Origin: Minisyncoccota bacterium
Lineage (GTDB): Bacteria > Patescibacteriota > Minisyncoccia > JAHIHE01 > JAGLIN01
Length of the DNA: 40,872 nt
Reading direction: 5' to 3'
Assembly: GCA_023142995.1 (NCBI GenBank)
Contig: JAGLIM010000041.1
Location: 1-40,872 of the forward strand
Positions 23,712 through 28,026 of the stretch are shown piece by piece. Below the pieces are notes generated by a model. The model ran no database searches, had not been told where the DNA came from, and saw nothing but the letters and a program-made list of their open reading frames with translations. The translations under genes and the position numbers were made by a program. Within the stretch, counting starts at the first letter, position 1; every line of letters begins with the position of its first letter.

Positions 23712-25421
23712 ATGAAAAAAATACTTAAGGATACAACTAATAATGAAGAGAGAAAAGAACTCAAAGAAAAATTTCAAAGCGAAACAATTAGTAAATTGTA
23801 TCATAAAGGTGAAGAAGATAGAGCAACATCTTTAGCAGACAAACATCATCTTGCGTATGTTGATCTCAGCTTGGTTCCAGTAAATTCTGAAACTTTAAAT
23901 TCAGTTTCAAAAGAAGTAGCACAAAAAGCAAATTTAGCTGTAATTTATAAAGTTGGTAAAAAGTATAAGATCGCAGTTACTGATCCTGAAAACTATGAAA
24001 CAAAAAAATTCCTTAAGGATCTAAAAAAACAAGATGGCGCTAGCTATAGTTTGGTAATGGTTTCTGAAGATAGTTTAAAGAAAGCTTGGGCAAATTATGA
24101 CAAAGTGACTGTAACTGAAAAGTTTGAGAATCAGAATATAACCTTAAAAGAAGAAGATCTAACTGAATTTGAGAAAGGAATAACTACAATTATAGATTTG
24201 AAGAAAAGAATCTCTGAAATAAATACTACTGAAATCTTTAATATTATAATGGCAGGCGCTATAAAAACAAAATCTAGTGATATTCATATTGAACCTAATT
24301 TAGACTATGTCAGACTTCGATATAGAGTTGATGGAGTCCTTCAAGACATTGTAAATTTACCGAAAAAAGTACACGGCACAATCGTTTCAAGAGTAAAAAT
24401 GCTTTCAAAAATGAAACTTAACGTTTCTGATTCTCCTCAGGATGGTCATTTTGGCATTGATCTTGAAAATACGACTGTAAATATAAGATCTTCTATACTT
24501 CCAAGTAGTTTTGGTGAAAGTATCGTTCTGAGAATTCTTTCTGATGAAGGAACAGGATTGAAACTTGATGAACTAGGATTCAATCAATATTATTTAGAAT
24601 TACTAGAAGAACAACTTCTCAAACCTACAGGAATGATCCTTGTGACAGGACCAACTGGAAGCGGTAAGACTACTACTTTATATTCTTTTGTCCGAAGATT
24701 AAATCAACCCAGTATAAAAATAATCACATTGGAAAATCCTGTAGAATATAGAGTTGAAGGAATTTCTCAAACTGAAGTTGGAGAAGATACTGGAATGACT
24801 TTTGCAGATGGACTTAGAGCCGTGGTTCGTCAAGATCCAGATGTTGTTATGGTCGGAGAGGTAAGAGATGCTGAAACAGCAGAGATTTCCATTCAAGCCG
24901 CGCTCACGGGACATATGGTACTCTCAACGCTTCATACGAACAATGCAGCTGGTGCAATTCCAAGATTATTACATTTAAAAGTAAATCCAGCTCTGATCGC
25001 TCCTTCAATTAATATTGTTATTGCTCAAAGGCTTGTTAGAACATTATGTGAGCATTGCAAAGAAGAATATGTGCCTGCTCAAGAAACTATCGATAAGATA
25101 AAAAGTGTTTTTAAGAATATGCCACGAAATAATAGGCTGGAAGTTCCAAGTGATATAAAAGTTATTTATAGAAGTAGCGGGTGTTCTAAATGTAATTTCA
25201 TCGGATATAAAGGAAGAATAGGAATCTATGAAATGTTTGCTTTAACACCGCATATTGAGAAAATCATTCTTGGCAACACTTCTTCATCAGATATATCAAA
25301 AGCTGCAAGAGAAGAAGGAATGATATCAATACAAGAAGACGGAATCTTAAAAGCAATTGAAGGGAAGACTTCTTTAGAAGAAGTCAGAAGAGTAACAGGA
25401 GAGATCTTTGTTGCAAAATAG
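23712..25421 (+). CDS. pilB: type IV pilus / type II secretion assembly ATPase (PilB/GspE)
   Basis: 569 aa. An N-terminal MshEN/T2SSE_N-like domain covers about 25-130 (RATSLADKHHLAYVDLSLV). The ATPase core has SSDIHIEP, RYRVDGVLQDI, Walker A VTGPTGSGKTTT (about 313), the Asp box TLENPVEYRVEGI, Walker B VVRQDPDVVMVGEVRDAETA and the His box GHMVLSTLHTNNA. A zinc-binding tetracysteine element (CEHC near 446, CSKC near 491) and GRIGIYEMF finish the protein. It powers pilus extension. No pilin, PilT or PilC gene is in the window, so either name (PilB or GspE) is by family. Confidence 0.93.
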   Translation: MKKILKDTTNNEERKELKEKFQSETISKLYHKGEEDRATSLADKHHLAYVDLSLVPVNSETLNSVSKEVAQKANLAVIYKVGKKYKIAVTDPENYETKKFLKDLKKQDGASYSLVMVSEDSLKKAWANYDKVTVTEKFENQNITLKEEDLTEFEKGITTIIDLKKRISEINTTEIFNIIMAGAIKTKSSDIHIEPNLDYVRLRYRVDGVLQDIVNLPKKVHGTIVSRVKMLSKMKLNVSDSPQDGHFGIDLENTTVNIRSSILPSSFGESIVLRILSDEGTGLKLDELGFNQYYLELLEEQLLKPTGMILVTGPTGSGKTTTLYSFVRRLNQPSIKIITLENPVEYRVEGISQTEVGEDTGMTFADGLRAVVRQDPDVVMVGEVRDAETAEISIQAALTGHMVLSTLHTNNAAGAIPRLLHLKVNPALIAPSINIVIAQRLVRTLCEHCKEEYVPAQETIDKIKSVFKNMPRNNRLEVPSDIKVIYRSSGCSKCNFIGYKGRIGIYEMFALTPHIEKIILGNTSSSDISKAAREEGMISIQEDGILKAIEGKTSLEEVRRVTGEIFVAK

Positions 25422-25560: not shown

Positions 25561-26541
25561 TTAATATTTACTATATCTTTCCATATATTCAGCAGACTTT
25601 ATATTATTTCCCACCTGTTCATATACTCTCGCTATCCAAAATAATATTTCGGGATTATTACTATCTAGTTCCAAAGCTCTATTAAAATCATCTAACGCAT
25701 TATTATAATCTTTAACAACAAAATATGATTTTCCTAATTCAATCCAAGCATCACGATAACTCTGATCTAATTTAATTACTTCTTTAGTTTTATTTATAGC
25801 AAAATATGGTTCATTGATCTTATTAAATAGACCAGCTATTAAAATGTCATTATACTTTTTGTTTTTTATGCTTCGTTTGTTTTTTAAACTGTCTTCAATT
25901 ATAGAAATATTATTTTTGTATAAATCATTTTCGCTTGTTTCAATTCTCTCAAAATAGTCATTAAGATCATTATCACTATAAAACTCCAGAAGACCTAAAA
26001 GATATGTTATTTCAATATTATTATCATTCTGAGAGAATAAATTTAACAACAACTCAGATGCTTTACTGTTTTGATTATTTGCAATTAAGCTTTTTGCTAA
26101 TTTAATATTTAAGCTTTCTTTATCATCAAAGTCAATTGCTTTGTTATAATATTTTATCGCATTTAAAATATCTCCTTTCTTGTAATAAATATCACCCATA
26201 ATTTCATAAGCTCTATGATCATATTTATTTTCTCTTAATGCGCTATTTATTTCATTTTGAGCATTTTCTAATTGATTAAATCTAAGAAATATTTCTGCTC
26301 TTCTGATTCTTGCTTGATATATAATATCTCTATTCCCATCAATTACCGCAGCATATTTATAATCATTAAGAGAAGTAGTATAATTTCCAACTAAACTATT
26401 ATAGTCTCCTGATCTCAAATAGTTATTAGATGTAAAAACTTGCCATTTATGGAAAATAACCATTAATATAAATATTATAAAAATTGCAATAAATTTTTTA
26501 TTTTTTATTTTTTTATTCATACTTGATATAATTAACGACAT
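25561..26541 (-). CDS. membrane-anchored TPR protein
   Basis: 326 aa. One N-terminal hydrophobic helix (about 18-33, FIAIFIIFILMVIF) followed by about seven tetratricopeptide repeats, clearest at AYEIMGDIYYKKGDILNAIK, AWIELGKSYFVVKDYNNALD and ILFWIARVYEQVGN. It is a scaffold facing the outside of the membrane; the partner is unknown. Two starts are possible: ATG 26541 or 26520. An extended -10 (TGATATACT, 26548-26556 on the minus strand) ends exactly 7 nt before 26541, which would give a leaderless mRNA. Confidence 0.8.
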   Translation of the reverse strand: MSLIISSMNKKIKNKKFIAIFIIFILMVIFHKWQVFTSNNYLRSGDYNSLVGNYTTSLNDYKYAAVIDGNRDIIYQARIRRAEIFLRFNQLENAQNEINSALRENKYDHRAYEIMGDIYYKKGDILNAIKYYNKAIDFDDKESLNIKLAKSLIANNQNSKASELLLNLFSQNDNNIEITYLLGLLEFYSDNDLNDYFERIETSENDLYKNNISIIEDSLKNKRSIKNKKYNDILIAGLFNKINEPYFAINKTKEVIKLDQSYRDAWIELGKSYFVVKDYNNALDDFNRALELDSNNPEILFWIARVYEQVGNNIKSAEYMERYSKY

Positions 26542-26563: not shown

Positions 26564-26749
26564 AAAAAAAATAAAACACTCAACAATTTGCAGACAGTTA
26601 GGTCCTCAGCTTTTAAAAGGATGAGGGTGGAGAAACTTCCGAGGAATAGACCAGAAATTCCATAACAGGAACCCAAACTACCCGGGTCTGGGATAATATC
26701 CCCGACTGTCTACAAATTATTAAGTGTTTTTAAGATTATTCTAGCTCAA
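26564..26749 (-). ncRNA. candidate structured small RNA, unknown family
   Basis: On the minus strand, arms 26705-26730 and 26573-26598 form a continuous 26-bp helix. Its only non-Watson-Crick pairs are three G-U wobbles; on the plus strand the same positions would be C-A mismatches, so the minus strand is the one under structural constraint. Inside are GGGATA-T-TATCCC, AGACC/GGTCT enclosing TTCC-TGTTAT-GGAA, and CCTCA/TGAGG around CTTTTAAAAG. The helix is followed by a run of eight U (26564-26571), and a promoter lies just upstream. Expected length is about 185 nt. The long closing helix and size recall 6S RNA, but I could not match any known family. No ORF lies in it. Confidence 0.6.
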
Positions 26750-26755
26750 CTGTCA

Positions 26756-26784
26756 ATACTATCACATAATCATAATCTTGTCAA
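26756..26784 (-). promoter_or_regulatory. near-consensus promoter of the candidate small RNA
   Basis: On the minus strand, TTGACA (26779-26784), 17-nt spacer, TAGTAT (26756-26761) with TG in extended -10 position. The start would be near 26749. A second TTGACA lies at 26751-26756. The rest of the 471-bp gap holds tandem and inverted AT-rich repeats (for example 26843-26874 against 26925-26947). Confidence 0.6.
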
Positions 26785-27012: not shown

Positions 27013-28026
27013 ATGAAAACGACAGATCCAAAAGAAGAAACTGATGAAATAAACTTTGAACTATCATTAAGACCAAAATGTCTTGATGATTTTATAGGAC
27101 AAGAAAAAATTAAAAAAAACCTTGACATACTGATACAAGCTGCAAAAAAACGAAATGAAACTGTAGAACATATGCTTTTTCACGGATCTAGTGGATTAGG
27201 AAAAACCACTTTATCTTATTTGATTGCCAATGAAATGGGAAAAAATATCAGAATTACCTCTGGTCCTGCAATTGAAAAAGTAGGAGATCTCGGAGCAATT
27301 CTTACTAATATGGAAGATGGTGATATTTTATTCATTGATGAAATCCATAGATTAAATAAATTAATTGAAGAAGTTCTATATCCTGCAATGGAAGATTACG
27401 CTCTTGATATTATTGTTGGAAAAGGACCTTCTGCCAGAACTATAAGATTAGATCTTCCAAAATTTACTCTCATAGGAGCAACAACAAGAATTGATCTAAT
27501 TTCATCCCCTCTCTTAAATCGTTTTGGTATCTCTCAACGGCTTGAATTCTATAACAACGAAGAAATTGAATACATTATAAAAAGATCCAGCAAAATACTT
27601 GGCTTGAAGATTGATTCTGCTGGAGCAAAAAAAATATCTCAAAGCTCACGACAAACACCAAGAATTGCTAATCGCCTTTTAAAGAGAGTTCGTGATTTTG
27701 CTCAAGTTAAAGGCAATGGTATGATTGATGAAAATATTGTTGAAAAAACTTTCGATTATCTAGAAATTGATGAAACAGGACTTGAACATACTGATAGAAA
27801 GATCCTTGAAATTATAATTGAGAAATTTAACGGAGGTCCAGTTGGTGTTTCAACGCTAGCAGCATCTCTTAGTGAACAAGAAGATACTATTGAATATGTT
27901 TACGAACCATATCTTCTACAACTTGGGTTTATAGAAAGAACTTCTCGCGGTAGAAAAGTCACAAAACTTGCTTATAATCATTTGAGAATTGAATGTCCTA
28001 AAAGTAACGAAGATACTTTACTATGA
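27013..28026 (+). CDS. ruvB: Holliday junction branch migration ATPase RuvB
   Basis: 337 aa, standard. Begins [19 protein letters not shown], Walker [21 protein letters not shown] (residues 57-76), Walker [13 protein letters not shown], sensor TLIGATTR, arginine-finger region [14 protein letters not shown], and the C-terminal winged helix ([32 protein letters not shown]). It forms hexameric rings that drive branch migration with RuvA, coded at 12377. The region upstream (26930-27012) is built of repeated TATGTTAATATGTTAGT-like sequence and no clear Shine-Dalgarno is present. Confidence 0.97.

Follow-up and report, generated by a model that had tools for sequence, protein, structure and literature searches.

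Here, we report a free-standing small RNA gene in a 40,872-nucleotide stretch of DNA from a Minisyncoccota bacterium (assembly GCA_023142995.1, contig JAGLIM010000041.1; the whole stretch is referred to below as the window). Comparison of homologous sequences shows a single-copy gene with a predicted, near-consensus sigma-70 promoter and a predicted terminator of its own, belonging to a new family of structured RNAs that extends across most of the class. The genome of the window amounts to 1.48 Mb in 95 contigs, and we infer its class to be the Paceibacteria/Parcubacteria. An earlier note, made from the letters of this DNA, had read the site as an independent small RNA gene of unknown family. 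This interpretation is supported by the conserved promoter, the U tract, covariation, the single copy, and the lack of an Rfam match, each of which is described below.

The gene is encoded on the minus strand. A -35 element TTGACA (26784–26779), read directly from the letters, and a -10 element TAGTAT (26761–26756) are separated by a 17-nt spacer and give an expected start at about 26749, i.e., with this putative start site the small RNA gene occupies 26564–26749, and the expected transcript runs from about 26749 to 26562 with a length of about 185–190 nt. The RNA begins with the 5' arm of a closing helix (26730–26705, containing AATTTGTAGACAG; class consensus AATCTGTAGGCAA), followed by an apical arm (26703–26629), a hairpin on the 3' side of the junction (26626–26604) with covariation, and the 3' arm of the closing helix (26598–26573), which pairs with 26730–26705 in 26 pairs. 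A U8 tract, likewise read directly, lies at 26571–26564, and a T-rich end is also found in the homologues of the same taxonomic family (own family hereafter); the tract and the closing helix likely form an intrinsic terminator. The promoter with its 17-nt spacer, the 26-bp closing helix, its three G-U positions (C-A on the other strand; exactly three were found), and the U8 tract are thus all present as the earlier note had described them. We surveyed the best promoter-like site upstream of 64 homologous loci, scored against the consensus out of 12. The mean score was 10.4/12 for the RNA strand, compared with 8.2 for the opposite strand and 7.9 for shuffled sequences. TTGACA is exact in 55 of the 64 loci with 17-nt spacing in nearly all, and the pattern TTGACA-17-TANNNT stands upstream of nearly all homologues, on the RNA strand only. 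The -10 box is located about 0–55 nt ahead of the modelled helix in the homologous loci.

The fold energy of the RNA is -65 kcal/mol, vs -36.6 ± 3.8 kcal/mol for shuffled sequences (z -7.56; 0 of 200 shuffles as strong). The structure was then evaluated over 36 sequences and 50 pairs with 500 shuffles and five measures, using an alignment that was not fitted to the structure. Double compensatory changes occur in 34 of the 50 pairs (191 doubly changed cells), and 91.0% of cells are paired, a measure that favours the structure because the structure was drawn from one member; none of the 500 shuffles was as high on any of the five measures. When the pairs are slid by one column, pairing falls to 50%. 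The closing helix is 97% paired with double changes in 12 of 16 modelled pairs, and the 3' hairpin (helix 6) has double changes in 3 of 4 modelled pairs with 72% of cells paired. In the conserved pairs across the class, there are 278 G-U cells vs 41 A-C cells, which fixes the RNA strand as the minus strand and agrees with the footprint of a selected RNA that had been suspected from the three G-U positions alone. The covariance model proposed in the earlier note has hence yielded both homologues and compensatory changes. As far as aligned sequences can tell, we consider it nearly certain that this RNA gene is under structural selection.

Within the closing helix lies a conserved, multi-branched structure of about 105 nt. 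In the apical arm, a small internal loop lies between two helices, and the arm is capped by a UNCG-type loop in most families and by an enlarged loop in the own family; it carries the most conserved motif, with the class consensus GGRUAGNNUGGNUUCGNCUGGNCUAYUCCUCGG, in which U-G and G-U pairs are conserved. A 5' hairpin is optional. It is absent in the family of the window, where a single base lies between the closing helix and the apical arm, so that a three-way junction is formed there and a four-way junction in many other families. The usual type of closing helix, CUGUAGGCAA/UUGCCUACAG, is replaced in a GC-rich subgroup (L153, L154, L159, L125, and L131) by a GC-rich helix of the CCCUGGCUG/CAGCCAGGG type with the same apical arm. 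Please note that the predicted minimum of the window copy has a different inner fold, i.e., three local hairpins within the closing helix, and that the conserved rod is 5 kcal/mol weaker (-59.6 vs -64.7 kcal/mol). This minimum-energy fold was considered as the conserved fold and rejected, as class-wide covariation favours the rod-like apical arm; within the own family, 95% of cells are paired in the conserved fold vs 86% in the alternative. By these energy predictions, a second conformation in the own family is possible, which may be a two-state RNA or a prediction artefact.

The stand-alone gene with its promoter and terminator would also suit a small RNA whose exposed segments base-pair with mRNAs and so regulate them in trans, and the C-rich UCCUC could in principle pair with Shine-Dalgarno sequences. 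However, nearly all of the conserved positions are paired and this holds class-wide, whereas base-pairing small RNAs have single-stranded seed regions and targets that turn over quickly. We regard such a regulator as very unlikely.

A DNA search found the RNA in 12 of the 13 other genomes of the own family, and these copies, once oriented, align over their full length, promoter included. The sole own-family genome without a model match (G005) is a draft assembly, so this is either a loss or a gap. A first model, R1, built from 13 sequences, reached beyond the own family; since R1 is too narrow and antisense matches reach up to 39 bits, its weak matches were not trusted without the motif. The sequences gained through R1 share AATCTGTAGGCAAT ... 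GGGATATTATCTTAG-TTCGGATAGTTTGGTTCCGACTGGACTACTCCTCGGAATTATCC ... TTGCCTACAGATT. A covariance model, R2, was built from 36 sequences and matches 240 of 383 class genomes at E<=0.001 (209 of 337 among the high-quality ones), these E-values being rough because the calibration was shortened. Antisense matches at the same loci reach 27–39 bits because the closing helix is palindromic. In a phylum-wide sample, among the matches listed, R2 is found in 15 of about 32 class members and in 6 of about 347 others (E<=0.01). The outside-class matches are mostly compact, about 105 nt; two of them (L172 and L177) are convincing members of the family, three (L179–L181) are plausible, and the case for L182 (155 nt) is weak. 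The compact forms L172, L177, and L179–L181 keep the inner closing helix and the apical arm and lack the 3' hairpin, and L179–L181 have CACGACAAGCA in common as an unpaired stretch on their 5' side.

There is one copy in the genome of the window, and second matches in other genomes are, where coordinates are given, the antisense strand of the same locus. The many copies per genome that the earlier note had associated with a palindromic repeat were looked for, and only this one was found; being single copy, the RNA is not a repeated palindrome, and that candidate is rejected. Searches of phage records for homologues and of IMG/VR for the exact core motif gave no match.

On the plus strand, the gene is flanked by ruvB (27013–28026; Pfam RuvB_N, 4.2e-75) as the divergent neighbour and by a PilB/GspE-type ATPase gene (T2SSE; 23712–25421; Pfam PF00437, 1.2e-119) as the convergent neighbour; in the own family, a TPR gene (25561–26541, minus strand) lies between the RNA and the ATPase gene. 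We clustered the flanking proteins of the homologous loci into families. Two families dominate with 51 members each, ruvB (divergent, upstream) and the T2SSE/PilB-type ATPase (convergent, downstream), and about two dozen taxonomic families retain the order ruvB–RNA–pilB. Neither the class-wide extent of the family nor its place between ruvB and the pilus-ATPase gene had been within view of the earlier note. The in-class matches first gained through the phylum-wide sample all lie next to ruvB, the ATPase gene, or both; as they were chosen regardless of context, this is independent support for them. Several loci have only one of the two neighbours or neither, and the RNA persists without an adjoining ruvB at L123, L147, L166, L175, and L176. 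Since the downstream gene converges and the upstream gene diverges, the RNA serves neither of them as a leader. A functional link between the pilus ATPase and the ruvB product is conceivable, as both could have a part in DNA uptake and recombination.

This conserved order could be read differently, i.e., as a cis-acting or antisense element. Transcription from the promoter, or the palindromic helix as read on the other strand, would then control the initiation of ruvB or end the transcript of the pilus ATPase, and the RNA itself would be secondary. In several genomes, the promoter overlaps the start region of ruvB, and the terminator helix often abuts the ATPase stop codon (distances from -9 to about +20); both fit such an element, as does the order kept in about two dozen families. 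However, G-U keeps the conserved pairs intact on the RNA strand, the promoter is on that strand only, the apical arm is far more elaborate than a terminator requires, and the RNA persists despite the TPR insertion in the own family and at loci missing the neighbours. Taken with these points, a cis-acting role is unlikely, and we think it very probable that the RNA acts in trans.

The earlier note had seen no 6S, SRP, RNase P, or tmRNA signature and had proposed an Rfam comparison. In our scans, no family matched the site at its gathering score and nothing meaningful appeared around it at E<=5; the whole window gave only a tRNA, and the homologues tested gave no family, only chance matches. The 6S model (RF00013) did not match the window at E<=5, nor did it match the genome of the window. 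With sensitive filters at E<=0.1, it matched 0 of 40 carrier genomes, which is weak evidence for the absence of 6S from the class because the same model matches only 5 of 14 control genomes; probably, the Rfam 6S model misses many 6S RNAs. It matches 22 of 239 phylum genomes, three of them above the cut-off and all outside the class. The 6S genes of the sibling classes (L204–L211) often fall below the Rfam cut-off. They have an open 5' bulge and mostly adjoin M50-peptidase-like (site-2-protease-like) genes, named from sequence, rather than ruvB. R2 matches neither these loci nor E. coli ssrS, and the new RNA, with its other neighbours and no R2 match, did not prove orthologous to the sibling-class 6S genes.

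For a diverged SRP RNA, the new RNA has a fitting size and loops of the UNCG type, and it would fill a gap, as the Rfam models of both types (RF00169 and RF01854) find no SRP RNA in any of 40 class genomes (0/40). However, the helix-8 motif is absent from the new RNA, and tblastn with Ffh found no match in the single-contig genome G117, where trmD was found at 5e-49. These SRP RNA and Ffh negatives agree with the loss of SRP published for Parcubacteria, in which neither ffh nor 4.5S RNA is reported to occur (PMC4508563), and the possibility of an SRP RNA is close to nil. On model, motif, partner, or orthology tests, SRP RNA and 6S membership were both rejected. RNase P RNA and tmRNA were rejected as well: RNase P RNA is a separate gene in 38 of 40 carriers, and the tmRNA of G117 is separate, with the new RNA elsewhere in that genome (R2 match, 114 bits). 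The Rfam scans of G117, covering 28 of 31 20-kb stretches (L214–L244) or about nine tenths of its 615 kb, gave only rRNAs, tRNAs, RNase P RNA, and tmRNA, so that, beyond these, we know of no class-wide structured RNA in that genome other than the new one. We found no description of it in the Patescibacteria literature covered, which included few subscription journals and no preprints; an earlier description is possible.

Same-fold relatives are present in about two thirds of the sampled class genomes, and for this reason the new RNA is probably a basic regulatory RNA, perhaps one standing in for 6S RNA. We would expect it to be stable, abundant, and constitutively made, acting in trans and not as a leader of either neighbour, and a conserved protein would hold it by reading the apical arm and the inner closing helix. 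That it is, as a whole, a trans-acting, protein-bound regulatory RNA is somewhat probable. The best specific guess for the partner is the RNA polymerase holoenzyme, i.e., the job of 6S, whereby the closing stem, apical stem, and 3'-side hairpin would imitate promoter DNA and the RNA would sequester the housekeeping polymerase. This guess is made because 6S, a near-universal bacterial RNA, was not found in the class and because the overall plan and the fixed neighbourhood of the new RNA are 6S-like. Drawn by analogy, a 6S-like mechanism is put forward tentatively.

In our judgement, it is evenly balanced whether the RNA is, instead, a new housekeeping RNA that is not 6S-like, confined essentially to Paceibacteria in the class-kept order ruvB–RNA–pilus ATPase. 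Neither its partner nor its function would then match any known bacterial RNA; it could be, e.g., a scaffold for a protein particular to reduced, host-dependent bacteria. The apical consensus matches no motif known to us, no homologue tested has an Rfam match, and a 5' bulge is missing from both the three-way and the four-way junction forms; in a class without SRP, unusual RNA biology is plausible (PMC4508563). Against a housekeeping RNA of this kind, the size, single copy, strong promoter, and general plan all fit 6S, which the class seems to be without.

The Candidate Phyla Radiation makes up a large share of bacterial diversity, and to our knowledge few of its non-coding RNAs have been described. 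The genomes of this class are reduced to 0.5–1.5 Mb. An RNA retained by most of such a genome-stripped, SRP-less class is likely important. A 6S equivalent of this form would show that promoter-mimic RNAs can be rebuilt around a closed junction. Otherwise, it is a new housekeeping RNA, and a partner other than RNA polymerase would make it categorically new. In both cases, the covariance model can be used at once on co-cultured Paceibacteria.

Canonical 6S is built from a closing and an apical stem, a 5' central bulge, and a hairpin facing the bulge, and its neighbours are fixed too, e.g., rarA in lactic acid bacteria (PMC8414754). The likeness to 6S that the earlier note had seen in size and closing stem holds for the architecture and fails for the Rfam 6S match and the 5' central bulge. 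Like 6S (ssrS, RF00013), the new RNA is a single-copy stand-alone gene of about 165–190 nt with a strong promoter, a long closing stem formed from both ends and an apical stem, both with covariation in the new RNA, a hairpin on the 3' side of the junction (helix 6), and a stable neighbourhood by a recombination-type AAA+ gene, which is rarA for 6S and ruvB here. Unlike 6S, it has one base or a third hairpin in place of the 5' central bulge, its closing helix is near-perfect, its conserved sequences differ with no sequence match either way, its neighbours are unlike those of the sibling-class 6S genes, and it is most conserved in the apical arm rather than at the junction. In some of the compact outside-class forms, about 10 unpaired bases are located at the position of the 5' bulge. 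With bacterial SRP RNA (RF00169 and RF01854), it shares size and paired ends but not the helix-8 motif, a model match, or the presence of Ffh in G117. Intrinsic terminators and palindromic repeats share the helix followed by a U tract; the new RNA differs from these in its single copy, its own promoter, and the roughly 105 nt of enclosed structure. With a 6S-like architecture but neither the 5' bulge nor sequence homology to 6S, it is therefore placed in a new RNA family.
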